A stretch of DNA of 47,672 nt, taken from positions 1 to 47,672 of the forward strand of contig WHST01000038.1 of the NCBI GenBank assembly GCA_009379955.1, written 5' to 3'. Position numbers and translations under genes: made by a program. Every line of letters begins with the position of its first letter. Positions within the stretch are counted from its first letter, which is position 1. Shown here piece by piece: positions 44,752 to 47,672 of the stretch. The DNA is from Streptosporangiales bacterium (GTDB lineage: Bacteria; Actinomycetota; Actinomycetes; Streptosporangiales; WHST01). The notes under the pieces are model-generated. The model was given only the letters and a program-made list of their open reading frames with translations. It made no database searches and was not told where the DNA came from.

Positions 44752-44803
44752 GTAGATACGAGGCACCGGGGAAGGTGCGTCTGCCAGCACCGAACAAGGG
44801 CTG

Positions 44804-44899
44804 CCGGGACCCCTCACGCACCCGACAGAGCCTGCCGACCCTTGCTGCCTTCCGGCCCTGGGGGAGTTGAGCTGGGTGACGCCGCGTGAGGGGCCTGAA
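44804..44899 (-). ncRNA. ffs: Signal recognition particle RNA (4.5S type)
   Basis: On the minus strand the conserved domain IV hairpin AGGGCCGGAAGGCAGCAAGGG, with the GGAA tetraloop, lies in the middle. The ends close through a perfect 10-bp stem, CCCCTCACGC with GCGTGAGGGG. The size of about 95 nt is that of the small bacterial SRP RNA. It pairs with Ffh to target membrane proteins. The location beside dnaX and a tRNA-Ser is common in actinobacteria. Confidence 0.92.
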
Positions 44900-44938: not shown

Positions 44939-45026
44939 GGAGGATTCGCCTAGTGGCCTATGGCGCACGCTTGGAAAGCGTGTTGGGGGCAACCCCTCGA
45001 GAGTTCGAATCTCTCATCCTCCGCCA
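44939..45026 (+). tRNA. tRNA-Ser (anticodon GGA)
   Basis: The acceptor stem is GGAGGAT/ATCCTCC with discriminator G and an encoded CCA (45024-45026). The anticodon loop TTGGAAA gives GGA. There is a long class II variable arm around TTGGGGGCAACCCCTC and a normal T arm. From position 44970 its 3' part is duplicated at 46721, so it served as an integration site. Confidence 0.96.
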
Positions 45027-45041
45027 GCCTGACCAGGCAAA
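44970..45041. repeat. Direct repeat, left copy (attL-like, inside tRNA-Ser)
   Basis: This 72-bp segment runs from the anticodon loop of tRNA-Ser to 18 bp past the tRNA end. It is identical to 46721-46792. Perfect repeats of a tRNA 3' half are the product of site-specific integration by tyrosine recombinases. Confidence 0.9.
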
Positions 45042-45047
45042 ACGCAC

Positions 45048-45073
45048 AGGGCCGGCCCGCTCGGGCCGGCCCT
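45048..45073 (+). terminator. Rho-independent terminator after tRNA-Ser
   Basis: AGGGCCGGCCCG and CGGGCCGGCCCT form a perfect 12-bp stem with a 2-nt loop, followed by GCTTTCT. It lies 22 bp after the tRNA and would end its transcript. It is just inside the left boundary of the integrated segment and absent after the right repeat, so it may have arrived with the element. Confidence 0.8.
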
Positions 45074-45147
45074 GCTTTCTGTGGGTAGTCTCAGTTGATC
45101 TCGATCAGGCCGGGATCCGACGCCTGTCGAACCATCATCGTCGCGTC

Positions 45148-45309
45148 ATGAACGCCTGGTTCATGTCCAACCACGGCGCGCCCTTCGCGACGTCCTGGTC
45201 ACTGGAGTACGACCCCGACGGCACGCCCCCGGCGCGGGCCGCGGCAGGCGTCATACTCACCCCCGTCGAGGGAGAAGACGACTGGTGGTTCCCCTGCTGC
45301 GCGGACTAA
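45148..45309 (+). CDS. Small hypothetical protein
   Basis: From an ATG at 45148 a 53-residue frame encodes a Trp/Pro/Asp-rich peptide (NHGAPFATSWSLEYDPDGTPP, then EGEDDWWFPCCAD). The longer frame running back into tRNA-Ser is an artefact. No family is recognised and no strong ribosome site is present, so it may not be expressed. Confidence 0.35.
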   Translation: MNAWFMSNHGAPFATSWSLEYDPDGTPPARAAAGVILTPVEGEDDWWFPCCAD

Positions 45310-45342
45310 CAACGGCGACCTCATCACGACTGACGACCGGGT

Positions 45343-45585
45343 TCACTGCACGGTGGATGTCGCGTCGCGGACTTCGCGCCAGCCGGGGTTTGTGAGCCAC
45401 CGGTCGGCGATGTGGACCGTCGGCGAAATCTCGTTGCCGTCGTTCACGTCGCGGACCCGGGCGGCACCGTCCTCATCGTCCCGAAACCGCACGGAGCGGT
45501 GGGGGATCCGGTGCAGGGTCAAGGCAGTCCGCAACCTGATGCCAAACGGACATCCTGGCTTGAAGTACACGACCGGCTCTTCCAT
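45343..45585 (-). CDS. Glutaredoxin-like protein with a monothiol CPFG motif
   Basis: From the ATG at 45585 (AAGGGGAAG upstream) the 80-residue protein has the thioredoxin-fold layout VVYFKPGCPFGIRLRTALTLHRIPHRSVRFRDDE, then the cis-Pro region EISPTVHIADRWLTNPGW. It resembles NrdH/mycoredoxin proteins. The active site reads C-P-F-G, having lost the second cysteine of CPYC/CPWC, so a two-thiol mechanism is excluded. It is divergent from the TetR gene with an operator-like palindrome between them. The longer frame to 45747 runs into tetR and is rejected. Confidence 0.78.
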   Translation of the reverse strand: MEEPVVYFKPGCPFGIRLRTALTLHRIPHRSVRFRDDEDGAARVRDVNDGNEISPTVHIADRWLTNPGWREVRDATSTVQ

Positions 45586-45611
45586 GTGACTTCCCCTTGA
45601 TAGGAATCCCA

Positions 45612-45628
45612 TCATAGCCTTACTATGA
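45612..45628. promoter_or_regulatory. TetR-type operator palindrome
   Basis: TCATAG-N5-CTATGA is a perfect inverted repeat in the 66-bp space between the divergent glutaredoxin-like gene and tetR, 24 bp before the tetR GTG. It is a good candidate for autoregulation and control of both genes. Confidence 0.6.
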
Positions 45629-45651
45629 CGAACATACTGGTACTGTGACGT

Positions 45652-46260
45652 GTGGCCGTCAAGGGATCGACCGGACATCGCCAGCGCCAGGCCGAAGCCA
45701 CCAAGCGGGAGGTGGCACGCATCGCCCGGGCGCTGTTCGCAGAGCACGGCTACGTCGCCACCACGATCAGCACCATCTCCGCCGAGGCAGACATCCCGGT
45801 CCAGACGATCTACTCGGCCTTCGGATCGAAGGCGAAGATCCTCGACAAGATCACCGAGCTCTGGATGAGCGAGACTCAGACGACGTCACGTGCCGCCGCG
45901 TATCTAAACGAGCCAGACCCCGCCCGGCAGCTGAGGATGCTCGCCGAGCTCAACCGGCGCCAGATGGACGTCGGCTCCGACGTCGTCGTGATCTACCAGG
46001 AAGCGGCGGCGTCGGACCCGCAGATGGCCGAGACCCTGCGCAACGTCTTGGCCGCACGCGAGCGCGAGATCCGCAAGCTCATCGACGCCCTCGCCCCGCG
46101 GCTCCGCTCTGACCTCACGGTCGACTCGGCCCTCGACCTCACGCTGGCGCTCACCCTGCCCGAACTCTTTCACTTGCTCGTCGTCGAGCGGGGATGGAGC
46201 CCCCTCCGCTACGAGGCGTGGCTGGGAACCACCCTGGTCAGCCAACTCCTCCGAGACTGA
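45652..46260 (+). CDS. TetR family transcriptional regulator
   Basis: From a GTG at 45652 the protein has 202 residues. The N-terminal helix-turn-helix (TKREVARIARALFAEHGYVATTISTISAEADIPVQTIYSAFGSKAKILDKI) is typical of TetR, and the C-terminal ligand domain is all helical. It is divergent from the glutaredoxin-like gene, its probable target. It appears intact and is the best preserved gene of the element. Confidence 0.9.
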   Translation: MAVKGSTGHRQRQAEATKREVARIARALFAEHGYVATTISTISAEADIPVQTIYSAFGSKAKILDKITELWMSETQTTSRAAAYLNEPDPARQLRMLAELNRRQMDVGSDVVVIYQEAAASDPQMAETLRNVLAAREREIRKLIDALAPRLRSDLTVDSALDLTLALTLPELFHLLVVERGWSPLRYEAWLGTTLVSQLLRD

Positions 46261-46263
46261 CCC

Positions 46264-46395
46264 GCGGCCGCACGTCGGGCGGCGATCATCGCCGCCCGCG
46301 AACTCGAGGTCGAACGCATCCGATCGGCAATGCAGCGAGCCCAGGAGCTCACCGATGGGGCCGGCGAAGCACTCGAAGCTGCTGCCGCAGGCTGA
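46264..46395 (+). pseudogene. Coding-like remnant after tetR, no start
   Basis: Directly after the tetR stop, and in the same frame, 43 codons read as a helical Ala/Arg/Glu-rich sequence (RRAAIIAARELEVERIRSAM, then QRAQELTDGAGEALEAAAAG) ending in TGA at 46393. It has no start codon of its own near the beginning. It looks like the C-terminal end of a lost gene. The family is not recognised. Confidence 0.45.
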
Positions 46396-46455
46396 GAACC
46401 CTTCGTTGCAGGAGCCGCTGACCCCGAGCCAGACTGAAGGAGCACAAGTCGACCG

Positions 46456-46590
46456 ATGCACCTGGAAGACGAGACCGCGCTGCTCGTCGACGGCCGGCTC
46501 GAACGCGCCGACGGCGCCGTCAACCTCGTTGCCGAACGGCTCACCCCGGTTGCACGTCGGGACACGGTCACGTGCCGCGATTTCCGGTAG
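46456..46590 (+). pseudogene. Remnant of the 3' end of dnaE2 (error-prone DNA polymerase)
   Basis: The 44-codon frame MHLEDETALLVDGRLERADG...VNLVAERLTPV...CRDFR matches the extreme C terminus of DnaE2-type polymerases: HLEDETGL, then LLVRGRLER-GVVNVVAERL and the final RDFR. The segment between DET and LLV is deleted and everything upstream is missing. It is a genomic fossil brought in by or trapped in the element. Confidence 0.7.
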
Positions 46591-46720
46591 AACCTCGTTA
46601 CGCCTTGGTCTCAGTCTTGGTCTCATCCACCACCGTCCGGTGGCGTACGCCTCGTCCCGCAGTCCGACGATTCCTGCGAGTGAGTACACAGCGGAACGTC
46701 GGCGAACTACGCCGTGCGGA

Positions 46721-46792
46721 CTTGGAAAGCGTGTTGGGGGCAACCCCTCGAGAGTTCGAATCTCTCATCCTCCGCCAGCCTGACCAGGCAAA
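46721..46792. repeat. Direct repeat, right copy (attR-like)
   Basis: This is a perfect 72-bp copy of 44970-45041. It contains the anticodon stem 3' side, variable arm, T arm and acceptor 3' strand of tRNA-Ser(GGA) with CCA, but lacks the 5' half, so it is not a functional tRNA. Confidence 0.9.
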
Positions 46793-47024: not shown

Positions 47025-47624
47025 GTGACCCATCCAGGCTTCGATTCGTACCTGATCTGCGCGACGCCACGCTCTGGAAGTACCCTGCTGTGCGGTCTGC
47101 TGGAGTCGTCCGGAGTCGCTGGCCGCCCAGCCTCCTACTTTAACCGTCGGGCTCTGCATGACTACGCCGACGATTGGCGGATAGCTCGACCTCGTGACGG
47201 ACGGATCGACGAAGCGTACGTTCGAGCGGCGCTGGCCGCCGGCAAGACATCGAATGGTGTCTTCGGCGGAAGGATCATGGCCGAGACGCTGCCGGAACTG
47301 ATCGGTGACCTTGCCGCCGATTCTGGATCAGCGGTGACCGATGTAGAGCTGTTGAGCGCCCAGTTGGGTCGGCTCAGATTCGTTCACCTGCGACGACGTG
47401 ATGTCGTGGCCCAGGCGGTGTCGTGGGCGAAGGCGCTGCAAACCCACTATTGGCATCCGGGTGAGGCCGTCAAACCCGGAGGTCAACATCCTCACTATGA
47501 CGAAGAACTGATTGGCCGGCTGGTCGCCGCAGAGCAATTGTCAATACCTGTGGATAGGTGTGTCATGCAGCTTGCTGCTGACTCGGTTGGTCGTCGGGTC
47601 GTTCGACGAGTTTGCCTTTCTTGA
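47025..47624 (+). pseudogene. Stf0-type sulfotransferase, truncated
   Basis: From a GTG at 47025 the frame begins with FDSYLICATPRSGSTLLCGLLESSGVAGRPASYF, the 5'-PAPS-binding and trehalose-recognition start of Stf0 sulfotransferases. LRFVHLRRRDVVAQAVSWAKALQTHYWHPGE follows. The family usually goes on with EEHNAAWRxWF and a second half. Here, after IGRLVAAEQ at about 47540, the sequence becomes unrelated and overlaps the antisense end of an IS-like gene. An insertion thus removed the C-terminal third. Confidence 0.7.
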
Positions 47625-47672
47625 AGGTCGCTCCTGTTCGGACGAGGGCGACGAGGTGGGGTGCGTTGACGG
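47563..47672 (-). CDS. Partial transposase-like gene, C-terminal end
   Basis: The minus strand from the window edge reads VNAPHLVALVRTGATFKKGK, then LVERPDDQPSQQQAA, and stops at 47563. This is the style of C-terminal tail I recall from actinobacterial insertion-sequence transposases, but I cannot assign the IS family. It breaks the sulfotransferase frame, supporting an insertion. The rest lies outside the window. Confidence 0.5.
   Translation of the reverse strand, partial: VNAPHLVALVRTGATFKKGKLVERPDDQPSQQQAA

Follow-up and report, generated by a model that had tools for sequence, protein, structure and literature searches.

What placed an exact copy of the 3' part of a tRNA gene 1.75 kb downstream of that gene, and how did the DNA between the two copies come to lie there? 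The window analysed here (47,672 nucleotides) is the entire contig C38 (G000:C38) of a 6.6-Mb draft genome of a Streptosporangiales bacterium, assembled in 225 contigs and 97.4% complete. The answer that we favour, and consider very likely, is that a 1.75-kb module without an integrase was put into tRNA-Ser(GGA) by site-specific recombination, with the 72-bp repeat at its two ends, and that this module is the first unit of an accretion array, the second being a sulfotransferase module later struck by an IS.

The duplicated tRNA end and its arm sites

An intact tRNA-Ser(GGA) gene (44939-45026, plus strand; ARAGORN), the attachment target, lies downstream of dnaX and of an SRP RNA gene (44802-44898, minus strand). 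Its 3' part belongs to the first copy of the att core (44970-45041, plus strand; attL side), and the second copy (46721-46792, plus strand) is at once the attR of module 1 and the left boundary of module 2. A repeat search confirmed the exact duplication described in a first-pass annotation of this DNA, with 72/72 identical bases at an offset of 1751 bp, and a chance origin of such a repeat is ruled out. The repeat starts at the anticodon stem/loop and takes in the remainder of the tRNA and about 15 bp of flank, so that the tRNA portion of the earlier description stands while its figure of 18 bp for the flank does not. Only one further copy was found in the genome, at C62:719-807 (copy 3; 87% over 89 bp). 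In an alignment of the three copies, identity begins at a C followed by the anticodon loop TTGGAAA (C+TTGGAAAGCG), and the DNA to the left of this point is unrelated. The T-stem reads GAGAG/CTCTC in copies 1 and 2 and GCGAG/CTCGC in copy 3, the latter as in genomes G002, G003 and G054, with G001 different again; copies 1 and 2 thus have one lineage-specific T-stem state in common and copy 3 has another.

The cores are accompanied by short repeats at set distances. Upstream of copies 2 and 3, GTCTCA-N6-GTCTCA is located at -113 and -101; before copy 2 this P-arm pair, GTCTCAGTCTTGGTCTCAT, occupies 46608-46626 (plus strand), and a search of the whole 6.6-Mb genome for the 19-base motif, allowing up to two mismatches, returned only the occurrences before copies 2 and 3. 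Within the P arm lies a second conserved repeat pair (46633-46650, plus strand; consensus CGTcCgg..ccGTtC), possibly an excisionase site. A set of 137 distinct P arms gives the consensus GTCTCAGTTctgGTCTCATTC and then this second pair, with the first GTCTCA placed 113-115 bp before TTGG in 132 of them. On the other side of the core, the P'-arm motif GTCTCAGTTG, which contains GTCTCA, is found at +118 from the start of copy 1 (45088-45097, plus strand) and at +117 downstream of copy 3; across relatives it is located at +113 to +122, with the consensus GTCTCAGTT...gTCtCagt. Copy 1 retains a single intact P' repeat, the second of the pair being degenerate, whereas two are common in relatives, and no P' arm is recognisable at copy 2, so that the att sites of the array may be partly decayed.

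The motifs recur with unchanged spacing in elements at the same tRNA in G054, G057 and G035, which represent other genera of the order; the nearest genomes, G001 and G002, are without arms. From established knowledge of tyrosine integrases, we take the GTCTCA repeats to be arm-type sites and the core to lie in the anticodon loop. Arm motifs at fixed distances, shared with the integrase-bearing elements at this tRNA, show the copies to be sites of attL/attR type, which bears out the earlier suggestion that the repeats are the ends of an integrated element. The locus combines an intact tRNA, a distal copy of its 3' half and arm-type direct repeats around the core, and on this sequence anatomy we assign the core copies, with considerable assurance, as attachment sites of a tRNA-targeting tyrosine integrase.

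Module 1 (45042-46720) has a G+C content of 66%, as against 71% in the rest of the window. It encodes a glutaredoxin/mycoredoxin-like ORF of 83 aa (45343-45594, minus strand), whose matches are below the curated cut-offs (Pfam Glutaredoxin 1.7e-4; NCBIfam mycoredoxin 7e-14) and which resembles (39% over 77 aa) a glutaredoxin-like ORF of an att-bounded module in G081. This is followed by a TetR-family regulator of 202 aa (45652-46260, plus strand; Pfam TetR_N 5e-11), with best relatives within the order of just 33-42%, and by a C-terminal fragment of a DnaE2-like error-prone DNA polymerase (46456-46590, plus strand; tblastn 57% over 37 aa, E 8e-4, to an annotated error-prone DNA polymerase). 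The first-pass description of accessory genes and gene fragments was therefore apt, as was its statement that no intact integrase lies between the repeats: ORF inspection, Pfam and a local integrase HMM found no integrase, replication or transfer gene in 45042-46720. Contig C22, which has a 44-bp match to the region of the polymerase fragment, was considered as the site of a chromosomal dnaE2 and dropped, as the surrounding ORFs are unlike dnaE2. A phage origin of module 1 was rejected since the module has no match in the phage collection.

Module 2 and the contig junction

Beyond copy 2, the window holds the 5' part of a gene for an Stf0-type sulfotransferase (47025-47531, plus strand; Pfam PF09037), the 3' part of which is located at C62:142-375; the two parts cover profile positions 1-164 and 168-243, respectively. 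The last nine bases of the first part, GTCGCCGCA (47523-47531, plus strand), recur at C62:142-150 and form a target-site duplication on both sides of an IS. The left end of this IS, with the imperfect terminal repeat GAGCAAT..TC...ACCTGTGGAT, extends over 47532-47672 (plus strand), where the contig ends inside the element. Both contigs run into the ends of a multi-copy IS, C38 with its final 141 bases and C62 with its opening 141 (C62:1-141); the IS is also common to the ends of C50 and C201. The IS accounts both for the break in the assembly here and for the split in the sulfotransferase gene.

Relatives show a conserved order of dnaX, tRNA-Ser, a variable region, ybaB and recR, and the ybaB and recR homologues of the present genome are on C62; these gene names follow the well-established dnaX-ybaB-recR cluster. 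In L059 (G002:C41), from a genome of the same genus, the orientation of tRNA-Ser(GGA) appears to be reversed relative to dnaX and ybaB. Given the 9-bp target duplication, the two sulfotransferase halves that continue each other, and the dnaX/ybaB-recR synteny, C38 and C62 are assigned as neighbours joined by one copy of the IS. The order of the locus is then tRNA-Ser, module 1 (1.75 kb), copy 2, module 2 (the sulfotransferase gene with its IS), copy 3 and further variable DNA.

With copies 1 and 2 in the window and the third on the joined contig C62, the locus is a tandem array of the accretion type. The first-pass reading of a scar left by one integrated element is accordingly retained for an integrated, integrase-less unit and revised as to number, the unit being the tRNA-proximal module of the array. 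Neither module 1 nor module 2 has an integrase in the available sequence.

Elements at the same tRNA in other actinomycetes

Integrases are found at this site in relatives. Close to the tRNA and on the other strand, G054 and G035 encode Phage_integrase proteins of 416-417 aa that share 61% identity; the G054 element combines its integrase with DnaB/DUF3987 and FtsK proteins, and that of G035 with a DUF3631 protein. With the same tRNA-Ser and the same arms, these elements are AICEs (actinomycete integrative elements), and the window modules do not possess the AICE combination of integrase, Rep and TraB/FtsK. In G057 (L062-L063), some 22 kb separate tRNA-Ser from a distal P-arm core; this interval holds large methylase/helicase-like ORFs, and no integrase was found in it.

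A search for a related integrase elsewhere in the genome, as had been proposed, gave no intact close homologue of the cognate enzyme; as the assembly is 97.4% complete, an undetected copy is possible. The best relative (C14:22130-23497; L215:4134-5447) is a frame-broken tyrosine integrase gene, reaches 39% identity to the tRNA-Ser integrases and has no tRNA in the surrounding 12 kb, and a candidate on C138 (29%) lies beside tRNA-Lys; as neither fits, both were rejected as resident integrases. Going by the assembly, a newly arriving element would need to supply the integrase.

The P arm and core pattern matched at least 120 stretches in public genomes; going by record titles, nearly all of these are from actinomycetes, with hosts that include Streptomyces, Kitasatospora, Nonomuraea, Actinomadura, Kribbella and Amycolatopsis. 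Within the order, 24 of the 347 genomes searched have it. This survey took intact P arms only and is a biased, phylogenetically dependent sample in which related species are non-independent; since loci were cut at 8-20 kb, large elements are under-represented in it, and nominal test values calculated from its counts are not to be read as probabilities. An integrase ORF, whole or partial, was found in 17 of 31 tRNA-adjacent segments and not in the other 14, and the internal segments sampled had none (0/32), counts that exclude duplicates, removed by hand, and a pair of long internal segments of 36 and 43 kb. The 43-kb segment has a weak 107-aa integrase match, and a 49-aa integrase relic was detected by tblastn in internal segment L149. 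The Pfam scan of 103 module ORFs listed 25 of 77 families and could by itself have missed a rare integrase, so absence of integrase was judged by the local integrase HMM. Full integrase-bearing elements have a median size of 14 kb and integrase-less segments of about 3-3.6 kb.

Arrays extend to about nine core copies, e.g. in Saccharothrix sp. ST-888 and A. bryophytorum. Contigs with about five to nine att copies were seen in G352 (Saccharothrix sp. ST-888; L242-L243), G354 (Actinacidiphila bryophytorum; L244-L247), G356 (Kitasatospora humi; L251) and G081 (L219), and in these long arrays nearly all internal segments have no integrase ORF. Their cargo, among the matches listed, includes PIN/VapB, histidine kinase, GAF/SpoIIE, helicase/WYL and type I methylase genes.

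Two Actinacidiphila species provide a direct comparison. The locus of A. cocklensis (L248) has the order tRNA-A-B and that of A. bryophytorum (L244) the order tRNA-A-C-B; modules A and B are 90% and 92% identical over their full length, and module C, an integrase-less segment of 1,958 bp lying exactly between cores, is found in A. bryophytorum only. By sequence comparison, the two loci differ by a single integrase-less module that was gained or lost precisely at its boundaries. Whole module-sized segments are also common to different genomes, with 98.5% identity over 4.55 kb (L114/L108) and 97.7% over 3.5 kb (L076/L118).

The first-pass annotation had named the same arrangement in distant genera as a sign of an old vertical duplication. 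Distant genera do have the same att layout, but their cargo and spacing differ; this favours repeated insertion over a single old duplication. Its suggestion that perfect identity of the repeats indicates a recent event fared less well. Even where an array has many modules, many distal copies in other genomes match the tRNA at 95-100%, and insertion swaps the tRNA 3' half for that of the element, so that repeat identity is no clock; we rejected it as a sign of recency.

Origin, mobility and known counterparts

The alternative that survives best is that module 1 is a decayed AICE whose integrase, replication and transfer genes were removed by internal deletion, leaving the ends and a segment with no life of its own. 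Gene fragments such as the dnaE2 end in module 1 are in keeping with it, as are integrase relics of 99-120 aa at the expected place in modules of L140, L231 and G352 and the size gap between integrase-bearing and integrase-less elements. We give this reading appreciable though less than even credence; it is a sub-case of the integrase-less module reading and differs from it on whether the module moves as a unit. Against decay, the window module has no recognisable integrase relic, and the whole segments common to L114/L108 and L076/L118, together with the one gained or lost precisely between cores, imply that at least some integrase-less units move or vanish as discrete units. It is highly improbable that copy 2 or the C38-C62 link was made by transposon-mediated duplication or is an assembly artefact, for although the draft is in 225 contigs and the contig breaks in the IS, copies 1 and 2 lie within one contig and the link is backed by the duplicated target site, the continuous sulfotransferase profile match and synteny. 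That the tRNA 3' half was simply duplicated as a segment, through replication slippage or unequal crossing over and without site-specific recombination, can be practically dismissed: the window at first sight offers just a direct repeat around unrelated DNA, but identity begins at the anticodon loop in the genomes examined, the arm motifs keep fixed distances, and integrases adjoin the same site in relatives.

For the insertion of an integrase-less module by site-specific recombination, the following course can be proposed. An element of the same family would have provided the integrase in trans; alternatively, the modules formerly had an integrase and lost it through deletion. Strand exchange at the anticodon loop would join the 5' half of the tRNA to a 3' half supplied by the element, regenerating the tRNA and displacing the old 3' half outwards together with its arms, and repeated insertion would build up the array. 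With its complete P arm, a single good P' repeat and identical cores, module 1 could still be mobile: excision in trans as a circle of about 1.75 kb is plausible, given the entry of a cognate integrase and excisionase.

Cis-mobilizable elements (CIMEs) and accretion arrays have been described for streptococcal ICEs. Module 1 resembles them in having AICE-related attL/attR sites, by core and arm geometry, and no integrase, replication or transfer genes, in standing in tandem with a related element at one site, and in its potential for mobilisation in trans. It differs in that the target is an actinomycete tRNA-Ser(GGA), the units are very small at 1.3-1.8 kb, no integrase-bearing partner was found in the genome, and mobilisation in trans is putative. 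The precise module difference in Actinacidiphila bears on such mobilisation indirectly and involves other modules. The window modules fit best among cis-mobilizable-type modules of an accretion array, and the window represents a further instance of an established type of passenger island.

Comparable arrangements are known from other bacteria. In Dehalococcoides, multiple tandem islands at ssrA are delimited by direct repeats of the 3' end of the RNA gene, and 15 islands without an integration module were proposed as cis-mobilizable elements (PMC3146451); these involve a serine recombinase and a tmRNA target, in contrast to the tyrosine-integrase arm layout and tRNA-Ser of the window. Accretion of up to three AICEs and a traB-less remnant has been reported at a Streptomyces tRNA-Arg (PMC9513070), and tandem AICEs, which excise singly and together, in Frankia and S. 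avermitilis (PMC3218068). AICEs share with the present locus the kind of integrase and the 3'-tRNA target, whereas the window modules have no int, rep or tra and the target is tRNA-Ser(GGA). According to the Synteruptor report (PMC11195616), distinct islands adjoin a tRNA-Ser gene, possibly a different one, in several Streptomyces; as far as consulted, it does not describe att arrays, arm motifs or integrase-less modules.

Integron cassette arrays are similar in having small integrase-less cargo units between recombination sites, with cargo of toxin-antitoxin type (PIN/VapB matches here). The present arrays differ in their double-stranded tRNA-derived att cores with arm sites and in their multi-gene units in both orientations. 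Integrons have IntI beside attI, whereas neither modules 1 and 2 nor internal segments of the related arrays showed an integrase gene. We tentatively suggest that tRNA-Ser(GGA) could serve in actinomycetes as a cassette-style capture site, at which small integrase-less modules for defence, toxin-antitoxin, signalling and regulatory functions, with full arm-core ends, would be inserted, lost and stacked by visiting AICE integrases, giving integron-like arrays without a resident integrase, of which the window would be a small example. Going by a limited search of the open-access literature, long integrase-less arrays at one tRNA may form a large, little-described actinomycete set that merits a separate study. 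Mobilisation of such modules in trans would mean that much of the cargo of actinomycetes travels with no mobility gene of its own.

The arm-core geometry (GTCTCA-N6-GTCTCA, about 100 bp, then TTGGAAAGCG) is a simple DNA signature for integrase-less islands overlooked by integrase-based tools. The actinomycete arm-core pattern is also present in L163 (JASIAO010000208.1), from a MAG labelled Acidobacteriaceae, which may reflect either misbinning or a wider host range.
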